A stretch of 39,225 nucleotides of DNA from an uncultured Merdimonas sp. (GTDB lineage: Bacteria; Bacillota; Clostridia; Lachnospirales; Lachnospiraceae): NCBI GenBank assembly GCA_944375745.1, contig CALWAV010000044.1, positions 1 through 39,225 on the forward strand, in the 5' to 3' direction. Numbering within the stretch: the stretch's first letter is position 1; every line of letters starts with the position of its first letter. This document shows, in pieces, positions 2,551 to 39,225 of the stretch. The notes beneath the pieces are model-generated. The model was not told where the DNA came from. It saw nothing but the letters and a program-made list of their open reading frames with translations, and searched no databases. The translations under genes were made by a program, and so were the position numbers.

Positions 2551-4686
2551 ATGAGCGCATTAATGGATTTAATCTACAAAGGTTCCAATGCGGTCGCCGG
2601 TCTTACAGAGAATGCTGTAAATGAAGCGATTGCAAAGTATGGAGAGGACAAGAAGGTAGCGATGCCTGACACCGCTTATTTTCTTCCGACGATTTACGCA
2701 GCCACAGGCGTAAAGGTGACAAAGCTGGGCGATCTGCCGGCCTGTGTAAATGTTCAGAAAAGCCTGATTACCAATAAGGAGGATCTGGGTGAGGCTCTGA
2801 ACGCAGGACTTGCCACAGCAGTGGGAGCGGAGATTCTTGAAGCTCTGAAGTATGTGGACAATGCAGATCCGTATGCAGAGGACAGCGGAATCGGATTTGT
2901 GCCGGACCCGGTCATCCGTTCTCTGGGCGTGCCGCTGGTTACCGGAGATATCCCTGGCGTGGCGGTAGTGCTTGGCAAGGCTGACAATGCGGAAGACGTG
3001 GTAAAGGTTGTAAAGGATTATCAGAGCAAAGGTATTCTGACGCTGATGGTCGGCGACTGTATTGAGCAGTGCGCAGAAGGCGGCGTGAAGCTGGGCCTTG
3101 ATTTCCGTGTAGTTCCTCTGGGACATGATGTGACCGCAGTGATCCATGCAGTGACCGTGGCTGTCCGTGCCGGACTGATCTTCGGCAATCTGACACCGGG
3201 CGATCTGCCGGGACTGCTGAAATACACAAAGGAAAGAGTACCGGCCTTCGTAAATACCTTCGGACCTATTGACGAAGTAGTGGTTTCCGCAGGCGCAGGC
3301 GCTATTGCGCTGGGATTCCCGGTTGTTGTGGATATTGATCTGGGCGAGAATCAGGTTCCGGGCGCTCTGGAGTCTGTGACAGACCATGACAATACGGTAA
3401 AGAAATCTCTGGAGCTGCGCAATATCAAGATTAAAGTGACAGAGCTTCCGATTCCGGTGGCTTTCGCTTCTGCTTTTGAAGGCGAGATTATCCGTAAGGG
3501 CGATATGCAGGTAGAGTTCAGCTCTCATAAGGCGCCTACCTGTGAGCTGGTAGAGACCGTATCCGCAGATGAGATTGAAGATCACAAGATCACAGTGGTA
3601 GGAAAAGACGTGGACGAGCTGGAGCCGGGCAAGACCTATGCGCTGGCTACCTACATCAAGGTGGCAGGAGCCAAGATGCAGCCTGACTTTGAGCCGGTTA
3701 TTGAGCGTAAGATTCATGCATGGTACAATTACATGGAAGGCGTGATGCACACCGGACAGAGAAACCAGATTCGTATCCGTATCAGCAAGGAAGCCTATGA
3801 AAAGGGACTCCGCCTGAAAGATTTCGGAGAAGTCATCTATGTAATGCTTATGGATGAGTTTGATATGGTTGTAGACAAATGTGAGGTCGAGATCATTACA
3901 GATACAGAGAAGGTTCAGGAGCTGCTGGAGAAGAAGGCAATGCCTGCCTATGAGAGAAGAGATGAGCGTCTGGAGAATCTGACAGATGAGAGCGTAGACG
4001 AGTTCTACACCTGCACGCTGTGCCAGTCCTTTGCTCCGTCTCACTGCTGCGTGGTTACTCCGGAGCGTCTGGGACTCTGCGGCGCCGTTTCCTGGCTGGA
4101 CGCAAAGGCTACCTATCAGCTGAATCCTACAGGACCCAGCCAGCCCATCTCCAAGGAAGGCTGTGAGGATGAGGTAAAGGGTGTATACCCGGATGTCAAT
4201 AAGAAAGTGGAAGAGGCTACCCAGGGCGCGCTGACTCGTGTTACCCTGTACTCTATCATGGAAGATCCCATGACCTCCTGCGGATGCTTCGAGTGTATCT
4301 GCGGTATCGAGCCCTTCTCCAACGGTGTCATCATTGCGAACCGTGAGTACGCAGGCATGACGCCTCTGGGAATGACCTTTGGTGAGCTGGCCAGCATGAC
4401 AGGCGGCGGAGTGCAGACACCGGGCTTCATGGGCCATGGACGCCACTTCATTTCTTCCAAGAAGTTCATGAGCGCTGAGGGCGGCTTCGAGCGTATCGTA
4501 TGGATGCCCAAGGAGCTGAAAGACGATGTGGCAGAGAGACTGAACAAGGCTGCCAAGGAGAAATACGGCATTGATAACTTTACAGATATGATCGCTGACG
4601 AGACCATAGCCACAGATGAGGAGACCCTGATGGCGTTCCTTCAGGAAAAGAATCATCCGGTGCTTGGACTGGATCCGATTATGTAA
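2551..4686 (+). CDS. acsB: Acetyl-CoA synthase catalytic subunit AcsB (CODH/ACS beta/alpha)
   Basis: At 711 aa this is acetyl-CoA synthase, which condenses CO (delivered by CO dehydrogenase), the methyl group from the corrinoid protein and CoA at the Ni-Ni-[4Fe-4S] A-cluster. The cluster ligands are all visible: C488, C491, C500 and C510, and the C577-G578-C579 motif that holds the distal nickel. These positions equal the published Moorella thermoacetica numbering (506, 509, 518, 528, 595, 597) minus 18 throughout, so the spacing is fully conserved. The N-terminal CODH-docking domain is also present. I chose ATG 2551, 9 nt after AAGGAGG (2535-2541). The in-frame TTG at 2545 sits too close to that site. 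It has its own promoter and terminator. The CO dehydrogenase gene (acsA) is not in the window. Confidence 0.97.
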   Translation: MSALMDLIYKGSNAVAGLTENAVNEAIAKYGEDKKVAMPDTAYFLPTIYAATGVKVTKLGDLPACVNVQKSLITNKEDLGEALNAGLATAVGAEILEALKYVDNADPYAEDSGIGFVPDPVIRSLGVPLVTGDIPGVAVVLGKADNAEDVVKVVKDYQSKGILTLMVGDCIEQCAEGGVKLGLDFRVVPLGHDVTAVIHAVTVAVRAGLIFGNLTPGDLPGLLKYTKERVPAFVNTFGPIDEVVVSAGAGAIALGFPVVVDIDLGENQVPGALESVTDHDNTVKKSLELRNIKIKVTELPIPVAFASAFEGEIIRKGDMQVEFSSHKAPTCELVETVSADEIEDHKITVVGKDVDELEPGKTYALATYIKVAGAKMQPDFEPVIERKIHAWYNYMEGVMHTGQRNQIRIRISKEAYEKGLRLKDFGEVIYVMLMDEFDMVVDKCEVEIITDTEKVQELLEKKAMPAYERRDERLENLTDESVDEFYTCTLCQSFAPSHCCVVTPERLGLCGAVSWLDAKATYQLNPTGPSQPISKEGCEDEVKGVYPDVNKKVEEATQGALTRVTLYSIMEDPMTSCGCFECICGIEPFSNGVIIANREYAGMTPLGMTFGELASMTGGGVQTPGFMGHGRHFISSKKFMSAEGGFERIVWMPKELKDDVAERLNKAAKEKYGIDNFTDMIADETIATDEETLMAFLQEKNHPVLGLDPIM

Positions 4687-11697: not shown

Positions 11698-12640
11698 TCA
11701 TTCATTTTTCATTTTCCAGTTTTTCCAGACCATTCGGATGACATACAGTATCAGCAGTACAACCCATGAAAATGCTTCCGCATAGGCAATTACCATATTG
11801 AAGAATATGGAAGCCAGAGCATAGGAGAAAAGGATGCGGCTGATGAGAGATACGATTCCGGCGAAGCTTGAATAAACGACGTCGCCAATTCCTTCCAGGT
11901 AGCTGCGGACGGCCGTGGCAAGTCCGTAAACCAGATAGAAGGCGGCAATCCTGTGAAAGAAGCTGTCGCCTATGGCAATTGCCTCTTGTCCGGCTCCAAA
12001 TATGGCAATCAAATGCCCGCCTGCTGAAATCACGAAGGCAGTCAGCAGCAGGGAAACGATGATCATGATTCCTGTGCCGGCAATTAGATTTTTCTTTGCC
12101 TGCCTGGGCCGGCCGGCGCCATAGTCCCGGGCGGTAAGGGTAGAGATGCCGGAGCCAAGATTGATGATAGGAACCATGATAATCGAGTCAACCCGGTAGG
12201 CTGTGGTAACCGCCGCCACCGTCTGTGTGCCAAAGCCATTCATAAAATTCTGCAGAATCAGACTGCCAATGGAGCTTACGCTGGACTGCAGCATGGGCGG
12301 CAGGCCAAAATGGCAGCCCTGTAAAAATACTGCACTGTCAAAGGCTCTCTTATGAAATGAGAATCTTAAGACATCGTATTTCCTGGTGCTGTATAGGACG
12401 AGATAGACTGTCATGGCCGCCTGCGAAAGAACCGTCGCAATCGCTGCGCCTGCGACGCTCCAGCGGAAAAACACCACAAAGATAATATCCAGGACCACAT
12501 TTACGATGGACGACAGGAGGACGGAATAAAAGGGCGCTTTGCTGTCGCCGATACCGCGCAGCGCCGCGGAATAAACGTTATATACGGCGAGAGCAAGAGT
12601 AGCCCTCTTGCATACGGTAGGTGCTTACCCGTTGATGTGA
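11698..12640 (-). pseudogene. MATE family efflux transporter, 5'-truncated
   Basis: The minus strand encodes roughly the last 310 residues of a MATE multidrug/sodium antiporter (normal length about 450). The conserved mid-protein segment YNVYSAALRGIGDS is visible upstream of the first usable start (GTG 12498), followed by helices to the normal C-terminus (MVWKNWKMKNE). Reading upstream, the frame hits a stop at about 12640, right at a change to unrelated AT-rich sequence. The first third of the gene, with helices 1-3 or so, is missing and there is no ribosome binding site. I therefore call it a remnant, unlikely to transport. It is not the other half of the MATE fragment at 36761-37160: both pieces contain overlapping parts of the family, so they come from two different genes. 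Confidence 0.8.
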
Positions 12641-13634: not shown

Positions 13635-13763
13635 ATGAAAAAAAGAGATTTTCTAACAATTATACTGGGCGCGGCAGTGATTTCCGTGGCGCTGGGCGGC
13701 TGCGGCGGAGCCGGAGAAAACGGCTCATCATCTACAGTACGGCTCTTGGAACCGTGGCTCTGA
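13635..13763 (+). pseudogene. Lipoprotein N-terminus joined to permease sequence
   Basis: ATG 13635 follows AGGAGGAGCAG and encodes a clear lipoprotein signal: MKKRDFLTIILGAAVISVAL, then the lipobox LGGC. After GENGSS the frame runs out of frame into the permease sequence that begins near 13725 and stops at 13763. The mature lipoprotein is missing. This looks like a deletion that removed the body of a lipoprotein gene and the front of the neighbouring permease gene. Confidence 0.7.
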
Positions 13764-14299
13764 CAGTACGGATTGTGTCCTGCTTCTTCTGTGGGATCGC
13801 GGCGGGGCTTCTGATCCGTCTGGCCGGAAGAGGAAAGCCGTTTTTCAATTTTTCAGGCTTTGAAGAGGGGAAGAGCCGTGATACAGATCCTAATCCTGTA
13901 CTGCGCCTGCTGAAAAACATCGGCCGCAACATTCGGATTACAGGACCTTATTTTCTGCTGGGTATTGTCCTGTCTGCCCTGTTCCAGCGGTATGTGCCTC
14001 AGGATCTGATGACGGAATTCTTCGGGGGAAACGAGGTCTTTGGCGTCCTGATGGCGGCGACCATAGGCGTGCCGCTCTATGCCTGCGGCGGCGGTACGAT
14101 TCCCCTTCTGCAGTCCTGGCTTCTGGATGGTATGAGCATGGGAAGCGCCGGCGCTTTTATGATTACCGGGCCGTCCACGAAAATCACGAATCTGGGAGCC
14201 CTGAAAATCGTGCTGGGCATCTGGTACTTCCTTTTCTATCTCGTTTTTGTTATGGCTTATTCGTTCCTGACGGGTCTGGTTGTAAATCTTCTGATATAG
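13725..14299 (+). pseudogene. ArsP_1/YraQ-type permease, N-terminus missing
   Basis: The frame from about 13725 reads IIYSTALGTVALTVRIV and continues to the normal family C-terminus. It includes the signature segment GVPLYACGGGTIPLLQSWL and the conserved GPSTKITNLGALKIVLG. About 190 residues remain of roughly 300, so the first transmembrane bundle is lost. The only possible start (GTG or the ATG-like codon near 13754) has no proper ribosome binding site. The family (PF03773, UPF0718) contains predicted permeases, some linked to organoarsenical efflux or redox-active modules. A second, more damaged copy lies at 30734-30910. The 3' end overlaps the opposing LysR gene by 50 nt. Confidence 0.75.
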
Positions 14300-15191
14300 A
14301 AGCCTGGATCAGTTTTTCCGCCGCCTTTACGAACCGGACCACATCCTCCGGGGCGTTCAGGCTGTAGAGCAGTCCATAGGGAATCTGATAATCCCAGTCC
14401 ACAGGAATCGTCACAAGGCCGGGATGCACGTCCTGCCAGCATTCGATGGTCAGCAGCGCATTGCCGGTTTCGGCGCAGCGGTTGAACACGGACAAGTCAT
14501 AGAACTGGGGAGTATCTTCTATCTGGATTTTCGGATGCCGGGTCTCCAGCTCATGGCGGATAAAGTCATTGTGGCCAGAATCCCCCCGTTTGACCATCAT
14601 CAGTGTTTCCTCGTACAGATCTTCCAGTTTCAGCAGCTTTTTTCCGGCCAGGCGGTGCTCCCGGGGCACGGCAATCATCTTCCGGTACATGCCGAGAGGC
14701 AGAAAATTGCAGCGGGAGAGCCAGGCTCTGGAATCGCAGACACCGATGAGAAAATCGAATTTGTCTCCAAGCTTCTCGATTTCCGAGAGAATGCCGTTGT
14801 GGTCGTCCTCAAAGGGAACAAGGTGCAGCTTATAGTCGGGAAAGTCCTGGTTGACCCGGTACCACAGATCCATAAAGGGCTTGGCCGGATTCAGAAGAGA
14901 GGTTCCCACGCAGAAGGTGTGTTCCTCAGCCAGAAGGGCGGCTTGGGCGCTGGCCAGAGATTTCCGTGAATAATCGATGAGAAACCGGGCGTCCTGGTAG
15001 ACGACGGCGCCGGCTTTTGTCAGCCGGATGCCGGAGGGCGTGCGTTCTATGAGCTTCAGGTCCAGCTGGGCCTCCAGAGTATTCATCTGTTTCATGACGG
15101 CAGTGGGAGAAATAAAAAGCTTTCCGGCAGCCTTGGTAAAGCTGCCGCAGTCAGCTACAGCGATAAAGGTATCAAGCAGATGATTATACAT
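14250..15191 (-). CDS. LysR family transcriptional regulator
   Basis: The 313-aa regulator has the winged helix-turn-helix at residues 1-62 (FIAVADCGSFTKAAGKLFIS, then TPSGIRLTKAGAVVYQDAR) and a periplasmic-binding-protein-like effector domain after about residue 90. It is divergent from the flavodoxin, aldo/keto reductase and cupin genes, the standard LysR arrangement, so these are its likely targets, perhaps in response to an electrophile or redox signal. The last 15-18 residues (QASISEDLQPDPSGTNKP) are read through the antisense of the permease 3' end and do not look like family sequence, so the natural C-terminus may have been altered by a rearrangement. The start ATG 15191 is followed by the HTH directly. 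Confidence 0.88.
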   Translation of the reverse strand: MYNHLLDTFIAVADCGSFTKAAGKLFISPTAVMKQMNTLEAQLDLKLIERTPSGIRLTKAGAVVYQDARFLIDYSRKSLASAQAALLAEEHTFCVGTSLLNPAKPFMDLWYRVNQDFPDYKLHLVPFEDDHNGILSEIEKLGDKFDFLIGVCDSRAWLSRCNFLPLGMYRKMIAVPREHRLAGKKLLKLEDLYEETLMMVKRGDSGHNDFIRHELETRHPKIQIEDTPQFYDLSVFNRCAETGNALLTIECWQDVHPGLVTIPVDWDYQIPYGLLYSLNAPEDVVRFVKAAEKLIQASISEDLQPDPSGTNKP

Positions 15192-31249: not shown

Positions 31250-31264
31250 ATGCAGGAGGGAATC

Positions 31265-34200
31265 ATGAAACAGAAAGCAGTGAAACGAATACTGGCATTT
31301 GCGCTGGCGTTTGCTCTGGGACTTTCCGGGGGACAAGCGGCTTATGCGGCTGAGACATCTTCAGAAAGCGCAGTGACCATACCGATTGTGTGGCCGGGAG
31401 AAGGCGAGGATGCATCCCCTAATATTCAGAAAGCTATTGAGAGGGCAAAAAAGCTGGACAGGCCGGTAATACTGGAATTTGAAAAGGATAAGGTATATCA
31501 TGTTTTTCCGGAAACGGCTTACCATGAAACGGGCTATTATATTTCCAATGCGGCAACCAAGGAGGAAAACCCCAATGGAGAGCGTTGGAGTGCATTGTTC
31601 CTAAAAGACATGGAGAATGTGACAGTTGAGGGAAATAATGCGCTGCTTATGACCCATGGAGTGATGACACCTATTTTGGTGGATAACAGTGAAAATGTAG
31701 TATTTCAGAATCTGCATGTAGATTGGGCCAGACCTACGATGTCGGAGTTTACAGTGACCGAAGTAGGCGATACCTATGCCAGGATCAAAGTAAACGAAAG
31801 CTCTTTATACGAAATCAGCGGCAATCAGGTGCGCTGGCTCAGTGAAAAAAAGCCGGATGGGAGCTATTACTGGACATTAACAGGAGGACTATGTGTGCAG
31901 TATGATCCGGAAAGAGATATTGCATGGCGTTCAAACTTCGGCTGGGGGAATTCTATTACAGATGAGGGTGACAATGTACTGCGGCTTGAATATGGTTCCA
32001 GGCCCAGTCTTACGGTAGGGCAGACCTATCAATTTCGCTCGGGAAGCAGAGATCAGGTGGGTACCTTTATACATAAAAGCAAGAATGTCCATTTTGAAAA
32101 TATGGGATTCCATTACATGCATGGACTGGGCATTGTGGGACAGCGTACAGAAAACCTTTCTTTCAATAAACTGGATTGTACGCCGCGTCCGGAGACGGGA
32201 AGAACCTGTGCAAGCTCTGCGGATTTTATTCAGATTTCCGGCTGCAAGGGTCTTATCAGTATTACAAACAGTGAATTCCGTGGAGCCCATGACGATGTGT
32301 TTAATATTCATGGAACTCATTTACAGATTACAGATGCGATACCGGAAAGCAATCAGATTAAAGTGACATTCAGAGAGACACGTTCCTGGGGATTTGAAGT
32401 CTTTGAGCAGGGCGATGAAATAGAATTTATTAATTCAAACAGCATGCTGCCCTACGGGAAAAACAGGGTAAAAGCGGTTGAAAGGCTGGATGACACGAAT
32501 ATTTTACTGACACTGGAAGAGGCGCTTCCCTCTGATATCCGGGTAGGGGCAGATGTTGTGGAAAATGCCACATGGACGCCGGATGTGCTGGTAAAGGGAA
32601 ATGAAGCATACGCAATTCCTACCAGAGGAATTCTCTGTACTACCAGAGGGAATGTGAGAATTGAAGACAATCTGTTTTACAAGACACAGATGAGCGGCGT
32701 CCTTTTGGAGGATGATGGCCGCGGCTGGTACGAGTCTGGCTACATTACAGACATGACCATTAAGAACAATACGTTTGTAGAATGCGGCGGCCCGGTTATT
32801 TATTCAAACCCGCAGACAAATGTATTGGATCCGGAGAAAACCGTACACTCAAATATTACAATTACAGGGAACACGTTTAAGGGAAACAGTCAGATTCGCG
32901 CTATCAGTACGAAAAATCTGGTGGTGGAAGGAAATATATTTGAAGATGGCGGAAATGTCAGTCTGACGGCATGTAATGGTTATGAAATCGCGGATAATAA
33001 CCAGGGCTTAGGCAGTGTAAGCGCGGATAATTCTGTGGGGGACAGAAGCCTGACTTCACTGAAGCTGGAAAAAGAAGAGGCGCAGGTTACAACCCTGGAT
33101 CGTACAGGAATGAAGGTTACAGAAGCTGTTAACGAGCGTGACGGGTATTCAAGGGATAACATTCTGGATGGAGATAAAGGCACGTTCTGGCACAGCGATT
33201 GGGATAATCCTTTAGAGCAGTATAGCATTACTGTTGACTTGAATGGAGAAAAAAGGTTTAACCGGGTGGCCTATCTTCCAAGACAAAATGAAGCGAATGG
33301 AAGAATTACAGAGTATGAGCTTTATGTGAAAAAACCGGGAAGCAGTGAGTTTGAAAAAATCGCTGAAGGAAATTGGGCGGCATCTGTGGAAGAACAATAT
33401 ATTAATTTTGACACAGTGACTGCCACAGAGATTAAACTGACAGCTACAGATGGAGTAAAAGATTCGTCTAACAGATTTATTGCGTCCATTGCGGAATTGA
33501 ACTTTCAGATGGCAGAAGAGAGCGCAGAGCAGCTGCAGATAGGGCAGAAGCAGAGGCTCCAGATGAAAGTTCTGGGAAAAACAGGTATGCCGGCGCAGCT
33601 TCCGGAAGATGCAGTGACTTATGAGAGCTCTGATGAAACTGTGGCAGTTGTGTCAGATGATGGGACAGTTACAGCTGTAGGACAAGGAGAGGCTGAAATC
33701 ACAGTGACTGTCAGGGCTTACGGGAAAGAATTGTCGGATTCTATTTTGATTCAGGTAGGAGAAGAAACTTATTCATCCATTGAATCGATTGATATCAAAT
33801 GGGAACCGGCAGAGGGCGGAGTCCAGCTTCAGGCGGATATTCAGCCGGAAGGCGCAGGTGCTGATTTGATGTGGGAAGCTGAGACTTGTTCCGGCGCACC
33901 AGCATTGATTACACAGGATGGCTTCTTAAGTATCGCGGGCAATGGAAGGGCAAAGGTGACAGCATATTCCAAGAACGATCCGGAAGTCAGAGATTCTGTG
34001 ATGCTGGTGGCAGCAGAAGAGAAAGAAGCAGACGGAACATGGAACATTATCAATGAGAACAAAGCGAATTGGCAAGTCATAGAAGATGGAAAGCTGGAAC
34101 TGGTAACTGAGAGCGGCGCTATCTGGAGCGGTACGACCAATACGGTAAAGAACGTAATTACCATAGATGCCGGAGCAGAGAATTTTGAACTTGTGACGAA

Positions 34201-36529
34201 GATGGCCTACCAGCCGGGAGCCAATTATGCGGAAGCAGGTATTATTTTCTGTGAAGATCTGGATAATTATGTAATGCTCACAAGAAAGAAGCATTCCGGC
34301 TATAATTCAAACGGAAATATATACAGCATGATCACAGAACAGGGAGGAAATGCGCAGGAGAGTCCTGCTGACCATGTGGTGATTGATGATGTGGCGGATG
34401 ATACAGTCTATTTGAAATTAAAGAAAGAGGGGAATAGTTACAGCGGTTATTATAGCGCGGATGGCCAGGCGTGGAAGCCGGTATGGGAAAATCGTACTCT
34501 GGAATTTTCAGAAATTCCGCGTGTGGGTGTGATAGGATACAATGGCGGCACTGCCGTATACGACTATCTGGAGATAAATGGAACTAAGATTACTTTTGAG
34601 AAGATGAATCCTTCTGTAAAATACATGGAAGCAGAAGCGACAGAGATATTCCAGACGGAAATTCAGATTGTGAGCGGAACCCAGGGACGGGAACCGTATC
34701 TGCCGGATGCGGTAGGTGTTGTGTGGAATGGACAGTATCAGGATCTGGTTGATGTAGACTGGGATACAGAAGGGTATGACGCAGATAAGGTAGGAACCTA
34801 TACTTTAAAAGGAAGTACAGATTCGGCAGATCTTGAAGCGGCTTGTATCATCCATGTGGTTGCAAATAAAGAAAAATTGGAAAAAGTGATTGCCCAGGCA
34901 AACAGAAAACTGGAAGCAGCTTATGAGGCGGAGACATGGAAGGAATTTCAGACAGTTCTTGCGGAAGCAGAGGCTGTGCTTGAAACAGAAGATATGACCC
35001 TGCCGCAGGAGACTGTAGACGAGTGTGCAGGAAAACTGACTGAGGCTATGGACGGGCTGAAAGTAAAAGCAGATCTGGATGGATTAAATACTCTTATTAC
35101 AGAAGCAGAGAAGCTTACCAGTGAACAGGATCCTGAGAAAGTGTATGATAATGAAACACTGGAAGAAGACAGACTCAACGGTTATTATTCGAAAGAGGCC
35201 CTGACTGAACTGGAGAAAATGATTTCAGAATATCAACAGCTTGCAGAGAAATTGCAGGAGATAGAGGATATGATGAAAGATGAAGCGTCAGAAGAGCCTG
35301 AGGAAGAGCCAGGGACACCTGTAGAAGAACCGGAAGAGTCGGAAACACCAGCGGAAGAGCCGGGGATACCTGCGGAAAAACCGGAGGAGCCTGCGGAAAA
35401 ACCGGAAGCGCCAGCAGAGGAGCCGGAAGCACCAGCAGAAGATCCGGAAGAACCCATGGAGGAGCCGGAAATATCTGTGGATGAATTAGAGCTAGCAAAG
35501 ACAGCACAGCTTCAGAAGAAAGAAGTAATAATTGTAAAAACAGCAGCGCAGATACTGGACAATAAAGACAGTATTTTTACAGAAGATGAAAAGGCTCAGT
35601 GTGCAGAGGCATGTGACAGACTGCTTGCCGGCATAGAGAAGCTGGAAAATTCCAAGGTTTCTGTAAGTACAAAAGCATTGGAGACGCAAATTGCAGAGGC
35701 AGAATCCTGGATGAAGAGTGTAGGTTCAGAGAACTATCAGAAAGAAACATGGGCAAATCTGAAAGCAAAAATACAGGAAGGAAAAGCGCTGATAAGTTCT
35801 GGAATATACAGCAATAGGATGGTGGAAAACAAGATTGCTGAAATTACAGCTTTCAGAGACGCGTTAAAGAGATACTATTCTGTAAGTGTAAATGCCAATG
35901 ATGGAGGAAGCGTTACATCAGATGCTGTAAATGGAAAAGTGCTGCAGGGTGAAAGTGTGGAATTCCATATTTATGCGGAAGATGGCTATCTCATTGATAA
36001 GTTGATTGTGAACGGCTCAGAAGTTCCGGTAGATCAGAAAGAAACGAAGTATGTGGTGGAAAACGTGAACTCAGATGTCCGGCTGACAGTTTTCTTTGAG
36101 AAGGAAATGTCGAATTCGGAACAGGGAGGAGGCAGCCACAGCAATACTTCAGGTGGAAGCACAAATGGAGGAAACAGCAGTGTGCCAGCTCCTCTGCCGC
36201 CAACAGAGCAGCCGTCTCCCATTGTTGTAGTGAAAGAGGATACTGTTTATAAAACAGATACAGAGGAAGAAACTGCCATAGACAAGACAGAGCAGGAGAT
36301 TTCTGAGGGCACTGGTGAAGAGCAGGCTGATGCGGCCCAGGAGCAGAAGGAGACAACTGAATCTGACGAGGATAACCTGTCTCTTGATGATCAGGAACTT
36401 GAAGCTTTGAGCGAGAAGGATAATGAGCAGCAGAGTGTCCTTTACTGGCTGATTCTGCTTTTGGTATTGGCAGCAGCAGGCATTCTTATTATTGGCATTG
36501 TAAGACGGCATAAGAAAACAGAAGAATAG
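31265..36529 (+). CDS. Anchored multidomain GH110-type alpha-1,3-galactosidase
   Basis: This 1754-aa cell-surface protein has a signal peptide to about residue 29 (AAYAAE). A right-handed beta-helix of the GH110 family follows to about 600: the start region VWPGEGEDASPNIQKAIERA and the acidic H342-D343-D344 site in RGAHDDVFNIHG, where the family's catalytic aspartates are expected. Next come a discoidin (F5/8 C) domain (616-750), Big_2-like domains (about 755-900), a LamG-like domain (925-1110), a Big_4-like domain (1138-1201), FIVAR helical repeats (1202-1335, 1472-1537), a Pro/Glu linker (1341-1412), a B-repeat-like domain (1538-1615) and a terminal membrane helix (1725-1748). There is no LPXTG. 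GH110 enzymes remove alpha-1,3-galactose, for example from blood-group B antigens. The start ATG 31265 follows GCAGGAGGG. Confidence 0.85.
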   Translation: MKQKAVKRILAFALAFALGLSGGQAAYAAETSSESAVTIPIVWPGEGEDASPNIQKAIERAKKLDRPVILEFEKDKVYHVFPETAYHETGYYISNAATKEENPNGERWSALFLKDMENVTVEGNNALLMTHGVMTPILVDNSENVVFQNLHVDWARPTMSEFTVTEVGDTYARIKVNESSLYEISGNQVRWLSEKKPDGSYYWTLTGGLCVQYDPERDIAWRSNFGWGNSITDEGDNVLRLEYGSRPSLTVGQTYQFRSGSRDQVGTFIHKSKNVHFENMGFHYMHGLGIVGQRTENLSFNKLDCTPRPETGRTCASSADFIQISGCKGLISITNSEFRGAHDDVFNIHGTHLQITDAIPESNQIKVTFRETRSWGFEVFEQGDEIEFINSNSMLPYGKNRVKAVERLDDTNILLTLEEALPSDIRVGADVVENATWTPDVLVKGNEAYAIPTRGILCTTRGNVRIEDNLFYKTQMSGVLLEDDGRGWYESGYITDMTIKNNTFVECGGPVIYSNPQTNVLDPEKTVHSNITITGNTFKGNSQIRAISTKNLVVEGNIFEDGGNVSLTACNGYEIADNNQGLGSVSADNSVGDRSLTSLKLEKEEAQVTTLDRTGMKVTEAVNERDGYSRDNILDGDKGTFWHSDWDNPLEQYSITVDLNGEKRFNRVAYLPRQNEANGRITEYELYVKKPGSSEFEKIAEGNWAASVEEQYINFDTVTATEIKLTATDGVKDSSNRFIASIAELNFQMAEESAEQLQIGQKQRLQMKVLGKTGMPAQLPEDAVTYESSDETVAVVSDDGTVTAVGQGEAEITVTVRAYGKELSDSILIQVGEETYSSIESIDIKWEPAEGGVQLQADIQPEGAGADLMWEAETCSGAPALITQDGFLSIAGNGRAKVTAYSKNDPEVRDSVMLVAAEEKEADGTWNIINENKANWQVIEDGKLELVTESGAIWSGTTNTVKNVITIDAGAENFELVTKMAYQPGANYAEAGIIFCEDLDNYVMLTRKKHSGYNSNGNIYSMITEQGGNAQESPADHVVIDDVADDTVYLKLKKEGNSYSGYYSADGQAWKPVWENRTLEFSEIPRVGVIGYNGGTAVYDYLEINGTKITFEKMNPSVKYMEAEATEIFQTEIQIVSGTQGREPYLPDAVGVVWNGQYQDLVDVDWDTEGYDADKVGTYTLKGSTDSADLEAACIIHVVANKEKLEKVIAQANRKLEAAYEAETWKEFQTVLAEAEAVLETEDMTLPQETVDECAGKLTEAMDGLKVKADLDGLNTLITEAEKLTSEQDPEKVYDNETLEEDRLNGYYSKEALTELEKMISEYQQLAEKLQEIEDMMKDEASEEPEEEPGTPVEEPEESETPAEEPGIPAEKPEEPAEKPEAPAEEPEAPAEDPEEPMEEPEISVDELELAKTAQLQKKEVIIVKTAAQILDNKDSIFTEDEKAQCAEACDRLLAGIEKLENSKVSVSTKALETQIAEAESWMKSVGSENYQKETWANLKAKIQEGKALISSGIYSNRMVENKIAEITAFRDALKRYYSVSVNANDGGSVTSDAVNGKVLQGESVEFHIYAEDGYLIDKLIVNGSEVPVDQKETKYVVENVNSDVRLTVFFEKEMSNSEQGGGSHSNTSGGSTNGGNSSVPAPLPPTEQPSPIVVVKEDTVYKTDTEEETAIDKTEQEISEGTGEEQADAAQEQKETTESDEDNLSLDDQELEALSEKDNEQQSVLYWLILLLVLAAAGILIIGIVRRHKKTEE
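35287..35500 (+). repeat. Pro/Glu-rich repeat tract in the GH110-type gene
   Basis: Imperfect repeats of units such as AEEPEAP, AEKPEEP and AEEPGIP code for an acidic Pro-rich linker, residues about 1341-1412. The DNA repeats are near-identical and could change length by slippage. It probably spaces the catalytic head away from the wall. Confidence 0.8.
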
Positions 36530-36677
36530 GATAGTTATGCGGCAATGTTTTTACGGGTATAAGTACAAGAATATGGCAGAAGAAGAATCGTCTTCTGTAA
36601 ACAGGAAAAAACAGCTTTAAATTTTGTGCAAAATTGCCTTTGAAAACAGCAGGAAAATTTTTTATAATATCCACAGA

Positions 36678-36732
36678 ACGTGTGGCATACAACTTGCGTA
36701 AATCCAGTCAGTTGTATGCCGCGCGTTTTTTT
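36678..36732 (+). terminator. Terminator after the GH110 gene
   Basis: A 17-bp stem, ACGTGTGGCATACAACT (36678-36694) with its complement at 36710-36726 (two G-U pairs), has a 15-nt loop and ends in seven T. It marks the right edge of the GH110 unit; recognisable MATE sequence begins about 30 nt later. Confidence 0.85.
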
Positions 36733-36760
36733 GTGCGGAGAATGCCCCTGCAGCGGCCGA

Positions 36761-37160
36761 AGAGCCGTGGTGGCACTGGCGCTGGCGGTGCTGATCGGAG
36801 ACGGCTGCTGTGCCTTTGTGAGCCTCTGCCTCGGGCGGAATGAAAAAGAGAAGGCCCATCAGAGTATCGGAAATTCGGTCCTGCTCTGTATTCTGGTCAG
36901 TATTGTTCTTACTGTGATCTACCTTGTTTTCATGGACCCGATTCTGACCATGTTCGGCGGCCGTGTCAACGAGGAAACCTTCTATTATGCGAAGGAATAC
37001 TTTTTCTATATTACCCTTGGCGTTCCGTTTTATATGTTCGGCCAGGCCATGAACCCGATCATCCGTTCTGACGGAAGCCCGGGATTTGCTATGGTTTCCA
37101 CAGTGGCGGGAGCAGTGACCAATCTGATTCTCGATCCGGTTTTCATCTTCGGAAAACCGG
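36761..37160 (+). pseudogene. MATE efflux transporter, middle fragment
   Basis: Starting near 36761, the plus strand encodes about 130 residues of a MATE protein (VALALAVLIGDGCCAFVSLC, LGRNEKEKAHQSIGNSV, later FGQAMNPIIRSDGSPGF and LILDPVFIFG). The family's first 60 residues are absent, as is everything after helix 5-6. At about 37150 it runs directly into the antisense of a histidine kinase gene. There is no start or ribosome binding site of its own. It is not the missing part of the MATE remnant at 11698, since both contain the same middle region. Confidence 0.8.
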
Positions 37161-37754
37161 ATTTTCCGGAATTTCCGCTTCTGTCTCAAAGCCTCCATTT
37201 TGCAGAAGCTCATAGAAATCCAGCAGGGTTTCCCGGCAGATTTCACAGGCATCGATGGGAGAGAGGGGCAGCTCCATATCCCCGGATTCCAGTCTGGCGA
37301 GAGTAAAAAACTGAATGATAAGCTCCGAGATGCTTCTTGCCTTTTCTTCTGCCTTTTTCAGCATCTCCATGTCCAGGCTCCCGCCCTGCTCCGCATTCAG
37401 CCGTAGAATCTCCAGATAGCCGGAGAGAACGGTGAGAGACGTTTTCAGATCGTGGGAGATGTTGGAGAGCATTTTCCGGGAGGAGAGCTCCAGACACCGG
37501 AAGTCGGCGCGCTGGTTTCGGAGTTCTTCCAGAATACGATTGATCTGGGAAGCCAGCTCTTTCATTTCCCGGCTGTCCGTAAAGAGGAGAAGCGGTTCTT
37601 CTCTGTCCTGATCGAGGATTGTTTTCAGGCTCTTCTGTATGTCCCGCAGTTCTCTTCTGAGACCTCTTTGGAAGGCGTGCCGCTGATACAGCACGATACA
37701 CAGAAGCATCAAGATGATAAGAGATAGAAGAAAAATAAGCATGTCTTGATTCAT
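37143..37754 (-). pseudogene. Sensor histidine kinase, truncated before the ATPase domain
   Basis: The 203-aa open frame has one membrane helix (residues 5-24), a linker, and a full dimerization/phosphoacceptor domain with H101 in SNISHDLKTSLTVL. It then ends at PENPVF followed by RR and stop. The HATPase domain (N, D/F, G boxes) should follow here but is lost; the DNA beyond is the MATE fragment in the opposite direction. It overlaps the response regulator stop by 4 nt, the normal kinase-after-regulator order. Without the ATPase domain it cannot autophosphorylate, although phosphatase or decoy activity is conceivable. The ATG at 37754 is the expected start. Confidence 0.8.
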
Positions 37755-38461
37755 AGCCCATCCCCCAGCTTATAACCGATGCCCCAGACGGTCAGAATAT
37801 AGCGCGGACTTCTGGGATTGTCTTCAATCTTGCTCCGCAGCCGGCTGATATGGACGTTGACGGCGTTCTCATCTCCGCACCAGGAGTCCTGCCAGACCAG
37901 GGAGTAGAGCTGTTCCTTAGTGTAGACCTTCTTTGGATTCCGGAGTAGAAGCTTCAGAATCTCAAATTCCTTTGCGGTCAGTTCTATCAGCTGGCCGTTC
38001 TTCGTAAGAGAGTAATCGGACAGGTTCATGACCAGCTCTCCGGCTGTCAGCAGTTCCGGACCGGCAGAGGAGGCAGGAGAGAGGCAGTCGTACAGGATGG
38101 TCCTCCGGATATTGGCCCGGATCCGGGCCAGAAGCTCCACCAGGGAAAAGGGCTTGGTGATGTAGTCGTCCGCACTCAGGCCAAGTCCCAGCGTTTTGTC
38201 TGTTTCCGTGTCTCGGGCAGACAGAATGATGACTGGAACAACGCTTTTGCTGCGGATGTGCTGCATGACGTCTATGCCGCTGATACGGGGAATCATCAGA
38301 TCCAGCAGAACGAGACTGTAGGAGGAACTGTCGAACAGGCGGCAGGCTTCCTCGCCGTCAAAGGCGCAGTCCATATCAAAATTTTCTGAAGTCAGATAGG
38401 TTTTCAGCATCTGGCTGACTTCGGGGTCGTCCTCAATCAGCAGAATGTTATGTCTCTGCAT
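37751..38461 (-). CDS. OmpR/PhoB-family response regulator
   Basis: The 236-aa regulator has a receiver domain with acidic pocket E10-D11-D12, phosphoacceptor D54 in LLDLMIPRISG and K103 in ITKPFS. A C-terminal winged-helix domain follows (ELTAKEFEILKLLLRN, then NAVNVHISRLRSKIED and WGIGYKL). It appears intact. ATG 38461 was chosen because AAAGGAC lies about 11 nt upstream and the receiver starts at once; earlier in-frame codons add an unrelated hydrophobic extension. Its cognate kinase, translated from an ATGA overlap, has lost its ATPase domain, so the regulator may be an orphan controlled by another kinase or by acetyl phosphate. The targets are unknown. Confidence 0.9.
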   Translation of the reverse strand: MQRHNILLIEDDPEVSQMLKTYLTSENFDMDCAFDGEEACRLFDSSSYSLVLLDLMIPRISGIDVMQHIRSKSVVPVIILSARDTETDKTLGLGLSADDYITKPFSLVELLARIRANIRRTILYDCLSPASSAGPELLTAGELVMNLSDYSLTKNGQLIELTAKEFEILKLLLRNPKKVYTKEQLYSLVWQDSWCGDENAVNVHISRLRSKIEDNPRSPRYILTVWGIGYKLGDGL

Positions 38462-38526
38462 ATTCAGGCAGTCCTTTCTTGCCATGTAAATAATGTATGC
38501 CGCCATAAAAATTGCCTGCTTAATCT

Positions 38527-39030
38527 TCATAAAGAAGTAAAGTCTGGCGGCAGAAGAAGCTCAAAAATCCGGTAATCGGTCCTCCCGGTGTCCTCGTAGT
38601 ACATCCGGATGGTGCCGCGGTACTGAAATCCCAGCCTGGTATAGACTTTTTCAGCCGGAAGATTTCCGGAGAGCACATCCAGGCGGATGGTTTGAACCTG
38701 CTGCTCATGCGCCAGCCGGATGGCCCATCTGACCATTTCACCTGCGAAGCCCCTGCGGGAAAAGTCCGGATGGACGCCGAGGGCGTGGATGACCAGAAGT
38801 CTGGAATCCGAGACCTGGACGGACCAGCGGATCTGGCGGTAGCCTTCGTTATACTCATGGTTTACCACCATGCAGGCGGCTGCCTTTCCGTTAGCCATGC
38901 CCAGGTACAGTTCGCCTTTTTCGATGGAATGAAGAAGAAATTCCTGGGAAGGATAGATGTCCTTTTCCCAGCCGGGCTTGAATTCCGCGTCTTCCATGGC
39001 GTCCGTCAGAGAATAGTAGAAATCCCGGAC
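38527..39030 (-). pseudogene. GNAT acetyltransferase, N-terminus lost
   Basis: Most of a GNAT N-acetyltransferase is encoded (from MEDAEFKPGWEKDIYP at ATG 38997). It contains the acetyl-CoA site VIHALGVHPDFSRRGFAGEM and the C-terminal NLPAEKVYTRLGFQYRG. Upstream of that Met, the DNA still reads VRDFYYSLTDAM in frame to about 39030, which looks like the family's residues just before it; there it meets ACT-domain sequence in another frame with a stop. There is no ribosome binding site before 38997. A 156-aa product is possible but the first 25-30 residues of the fold are gone. Confidence 0.65.
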
Positions 39031-39225
39031 GTGTAATCTGTATTATAGGTTGAAAGTGCAAAAATCGAAATCCCGTGTTCTGCCAGGAGCTTTGCGATCT
39101 CAGCCAGTATCCCAATCAGAGAAAAGTCCAGAACACCCTGAATGCGGAAGGCTTTCCAGCCGTCATCCCGCTGAATCGTGTTTGGCGGCACATCCTTTGT
39201 CATGCAGACCAGGGAGTTTTCCTCA
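39006..39225 (-). pseudogene. ACT domain protein, partial and 3'-truncated
   Basis: Entering from the right edge on the minus strand, the frame encodes DDGWKAFRIQGVLDFSLIGI and LLAEHGISIFALSTYNTDY, the second ACT domain of small ACT/CASTOR-like proteins. The usual ending after NTDY (another 20-25 residues) is missing. After Tyr the frame runs for about ten unrelated residues into a stop at 39006, inside the GNAT remnant. The 5' end is outside the window. Such domains bind amino acids; no specific ligand can be named. Confidence 0.7.

Follow-up and report, generated by a model that had tools for sequence, protein, structure and literature searches.

An ACT-domain gene and a GNAT acetyltransferase gene truncated at a single join in a draft-genome contig

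At the right end of the window, the 39,225-nucleotide stretch analyzed here, a gene for an ACT_7-domain protein and a gene for a GNAT acetyltransferase, both on the minus strand, each lose one end at a single point. This stretch makes up contig C44 in its entirety; the draft genome to which it belongs (G000) measures 2.64 Mb in 162 contigs and is 83% complete. Both genes are truncated as assembled, whichever the cause, and a new mechanism is not indicated. Our analysis tilts slightly toward a real event in the sampled organism, in which DNA was joined without homology, most simply through a deletion, so that both genes were truncated and left as remnants that are probably non-functional. The coordinates of the features are listed in Table 1.

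Table 1. Truncated genes and junctions in the window
Feature	Coordinates	Strand	Basis or remarks
ACT/GNAT join point	39031..39033	-	ACT homology ends at the Tyr codon 39033-39035; GNAT homology present from 39030 at the latest
ACT_7-domain gene, middle part	39033..39224	-	Homologue alignment and Pfam; 5' end on contig C121, 3' end (~23-25 codons) missing
TSGISTIL, out-of-register tail of the ACT frame to TGA, on GNAT DNA	39006..39032	-	Frames read
GNAT acetyltransferase gene without start and ~13 N-terminal codons	38527..39030	-	Frame, Pfam and alignment of relatives
Junction at 37152 that truncates a MATE fragment (+) and a histidine kinase fragment (-)	37134-37162		Perfect 11-base inverted repeat with 7-base loop
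MATE-family fragment of ~130 residues without both ends	36680-37153	+	N terminus lost near 36755, by eye
Lipoprotein start MKKRDFLTIILGAAVISVALGGCGG (by eye) running into C-terminal half of ArsP_1 permease	13635-14299		Both lose an end near 13735
Second MATE-family gene	11698-12605	-	One MatE match; N-terminal part seems missing, break near 12600 by eye

The ACT frame enters at the right end of the contig and runs normally to STYNTDY, after which eight unrelated codons lead to a TGA at 39008-39006. The contig end also cuts this gene, and its first 34 residues were taken from contig C121 (4497-4654), the end of which (4598-4654) is an exact 57-base overlap with the end of the window (39169..39225). 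This was the sole overlap among the contig ends compared, two masked contigs apart; the comparison comprised the window and 20 other contigs of G000, five of which were covered to 20 kb, without their right ends. On C121, pheS and pheT (named by eye) lie on the strand opposite to the ACT start. The ACT protein, with its start from C121, was aligned with nine complete homologues, to which it is 55 to 67% identical without any internal gap up to NTDY. After TDY, eight of these homologues continue for 23 to 25 more residues and the ninth, L026, for 33. In accordance, the window protein spans positions 2 to 48 of the 65-position Pfam profile ACT_7, compared to 3 to 64 in the L079 homologue: the domain is incomplete, and its N-terminal half and the NTDY region are conserved. 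By sequence, the complete L079 homologue matches Atu0741 (PDB 1zhv; E value, 1.3e-16) and, in the arginine sensor CASTOR1, the last ACT domain (2.4e-11), whereas the window copy lacks the end of this domain. When the genome of the window itself was searched with the C terminus of an ACT homologue, only the window copy up to NTDY was retrieved, which is weak evidence for the absence of the missing end, since that genome is 83% complete. The ACT gene was found in 7 of 15 genomes of the same genus. In three genomes of that genus (L021, L024, and L025) it is, by eye, the next gene after acsB-like DNA; the acsB-like gene of the window is located at the opposite contig end (2545-4686), and the ACT gene there has other neighbors. 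Among the matches listed in a literature search for ACT_7/COG3603, there were only unrelated papers.

The GNAT homology begins with VRDFYYSLTDAM (39030) in a frame other than that of the ACT gene. This frame, open only after a TAA at 39045-39043, reads YRLHVRDFYYSLTDAMEDAEF (VRDFYYSLTDAMEDAEF...), and its first ATG is at 38997. A Pfam scan, made with the window GNAT only, gave a match to the family Acetyltransf_1 (E value, 3e-13; profile positions 12 to 116 of 116), and the core is thus present. Seven relatives of at least 60% identity were compared, six of which are distinct (L051 and L081 look alike); the best were L079 and L080 (67% identical), followed by L051/L081 (61%). In all seven, approximately 13 to 14 residues that end in D-Y-x-x precede the motif V-R/K-x-F-Y-Y, and none of these residues is present in the window. 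A Met is found 13 to 14 residues ahead of the V in six of the seven relatives, the exception being L079. The closest relative, in L079 (4194-5486), is the C-terminal part of a 430-amino-acid frame with a hydrolase-like first part (by eye), indicating that this type of GNAT can belong to a longer protein. With respect to GNAT acetyltransferases of the family Acetyltransf_1, the window protein therefore has the core but neither a start codon nor the N-terminal residues that its relatives carry. No close GNAT was retrieved from the 15 genomes of the same genus, in which the best-scoring match was 32% identical.

These alignments place the join at 39031-39033, because the ACT homologues continue past TDY and the GNAT relatives have an N-terminal stretch that is absent here. 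A preliminary description of this DNA had proposed that the ACT gene runs after NTDY into a GNAT segment in another frame and without a start, and that each gene is cut short at one and the same point near 39030. Both proposals hold: the two minus-strand frames are seen in the sequence, and the alignment with complete homologues of both genes, which that description had called for, reveals the two truncations and a join within 39020-39045. The difference in frame also led us to reject a natural gene fusion. Probably few if any bases are shared at the join. D-Y is encoded near the join both by the ACT gene (in N-T-D-Y) and by the GNAT relatives, but the join does not fall in the register that an exact exchange at D-Y would give. 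A direct repeat of 9 bases, or of 16 bases at 81%, surrounds the join; slippage between its copies was rejected, as both copies are kept and neither is located at the join. Repeats of 9 bases or more were observed at 27 of 400 random window positions, and the repeat is thus unremarkable.

A DNA match across the join was found in none of 40 relatives and none of 15 other members of the genus. Short exact patterns over the join were likewise absent from the collections genome_contigs and viral_contigs, a search that detects near-identical strains only and in collections that may omit the records of the window's own genome. In L079 (8284-8682), L065, and L069 (39-452), the ACT gene has a GNAT gene on its own strand at a distance of a few kb, in differing order. 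In L065 and L069, the ACT gene is upstream of a GNAT gene whose product is only 30% identical, and in L079 the close GNAT is upstream of the ACT gene.

Illegitimate recombination gives joins with few or no shared bases, and illegitimate deletion (microhomology mediated or non-homologous) fuses gene remnants in bacterial genomes. The ACT/GNAT join resembles such fusions in that two unrelated genes on the same strand are each shortened at a single position, where they share few bases or none. According to the reading that we prefer, the DNA of the sampled organism would have undergone a non-homologous join, which a deletion would explain most simply. This event would have removed the last ~23 to 25 ACT codons, any DNA between the two genes, and the start and ~13 codons of the downstream GNAT gene, leaving both as truncated and probably non-functional remnants. 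What the sequence demonstrates is the pair of truncations and the single join point; a real join, a deletion rather than some other rearrangement, and the loss of function are inferred. We give a real non-homologous deletion or rearrangement a slight edge over a chimera of library or assembly origin for several reasons: (i) complete homologues of both genes exist, and ACT and GNAT genes are near each other in other genomes; (ii) the gene statistics are like those of relatives, and the codon usage matches that of G000; (iii) the traced broken genes have a patchy distribution (ACT in 7 of 15 genomes, a close GNAT in 0 of 15, and the kinase described below in 27 of 396); and (iv) there is no long shared sequence that could mislead an assembler.

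The data on codon usage and gene content were as follows. In codon usage, the right-end pieces (ACT, GNAT, response regulator, kinase, and MATE) all fall inside the 5 to 95% range that equally long segments from long G000 genes define; these pieces consequently look like one genome. An origin in another species is therefore unsupported by codon usage, although the best-scoring GNAT in the 15 genomes of the same genus has only 32% identity, whereas the ACT gene is present in 7 of them. The segments contain no internal stops, which is no independent evidence, as they were picked as open frames. A 250-kb sample of G000 that includes the window contains 0.87 genes per kb, with a median gene length of 277 amino acids and a coding fraction of 0.849; three samples of the same genus gave 0.80 to 0.85, 261 to 318, and 0.759 to 0.866, respectively. 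The genome is thus not generally scrambled. As a separate observation, the gene for a 1,759-amino-acid protein at 31250-36529 scored 0.022 in codon usage, which places it under the 5th percentile of long G000 genes; its third-position GC content is 0.43, compared to a mean of 0.60, and it is possibly foreign or repeat biased. No Rfam family matched the window or C121 at gathering scores.

Draft and metagenome assemblies can carry chimeric contig joins, and a substantial possibility, though not the one we prefer, is that the join is an artifact. Pieces of intact genes would then have been linked in a chimeric molecule, formed during library preparation or whole-genome amplification, or by a misjoin during assembly, and in the organism both genes would be complete. 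As in such chimeric joins, the ACT/GNAT join is near a contig end (~195 bases), is one of several in its contig, and was observed in one assembly only, being absent from every other genome searched. Including it, there are five broken points in this 39-kb contig; of the four others, three were placed by eye (at ~12600, ~13735, and ~36755) and one is at 37152. The traced fragments (GNAT, kinase, and ACT) are each homologous in one unbroken frame, and hence show no sign of age. The break at 37152 is inverted: a MATE fragment and a histidine kinase fragment meet inside a perfect 11-base inverted repeat, which folds as DNA at -13.5 kcal/mol (z score, -3.7), and inverted matches of 10 bases or more were found at only 1 of 400 random window positions. 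Chimeric reads at inverted repeats have been described as a product of library preparation in human samples (PMC10908179). Against an artifact, the assembler presumably required shared words of ~57 bases, a length derived from the 57-base exact overlap between the window and C121 and far above anything shared at the ACT/GNAT join. Furthermore, chimeric molecules are rare compared to true ones, the gene statistics of G000 resemble those of its relatives, and the direct repeat around the join is unremarkable.

The genes at the other breaks also appear to be incomplete. At 37152, the MATE fragment matches positions 43 to 161 of the 161-position MatE profile, without a second MatE match, and the kinase has a HisKA match but no ATPase match, its ATPase half being missing. 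This kinase was found in 27 of 396 other genomes of the family, where its open frames cover 287 to 367 amino acids versus 208 here by the same measure. The MATE fragment follows closely on a hairpin and T-run that look like a terminator (by eye), 3' of the 1,759-amino-acid gene, which is surface protein-like. The ArsP_1 permease near 13735 is matched only at profile positions 167 to 293 of 294. When 36400-38600 was searched as DNA against its own genome, 18 short or weak matches (E values up to 1) were returned besides the segment itself, the best of which was 82% over 59 bases; 11 of the 18 were in the response-regulator part. Unnatural coding ends were also sought with a home-made codon model, which was too insensitive: it flagged one of the five breaks (37141) and a probable false positive at 14300.

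We also considered whether the remnants still work, with a short ACT protein being made and the GNAT protein re-initiated at the ATG at 38997 in a new coupled two-gene unit. This is highly improbable. The ATG is located 8 bases past the TGA of the ACT frame, and Acetyltransf_1 is still matched over most of its profile, both of which would fit this idea. However, the ACT domain is without its last 17 profile positions, which we take to be the final helix and strand of the fold; a GNAT protein starting at 38997 would be without ~24 N-terminal residues; by eye, a purine-rich ribosome-binding site is absent ahead of this ATG; and the arrangement was found in none of the searched genomes. Slightly less probable still is the reading that a recent deletion coupled an amino-acid-sensing ACT gene to an acetyltransferase gene at the level of translation, with both still functional in spite of their shortening.

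Most likely, the join goes back to a commonplace deletion of DNA or to an assembly error, rather than marking a novel type of genetic element. The ends of the ACT and GNAT genes, and several other gene ends in this contig, should not be taken as natural ends or fusions before the joins have been confirmed. Two stretches of the contig would be spots of ongoing gene loss if the joins prove real.
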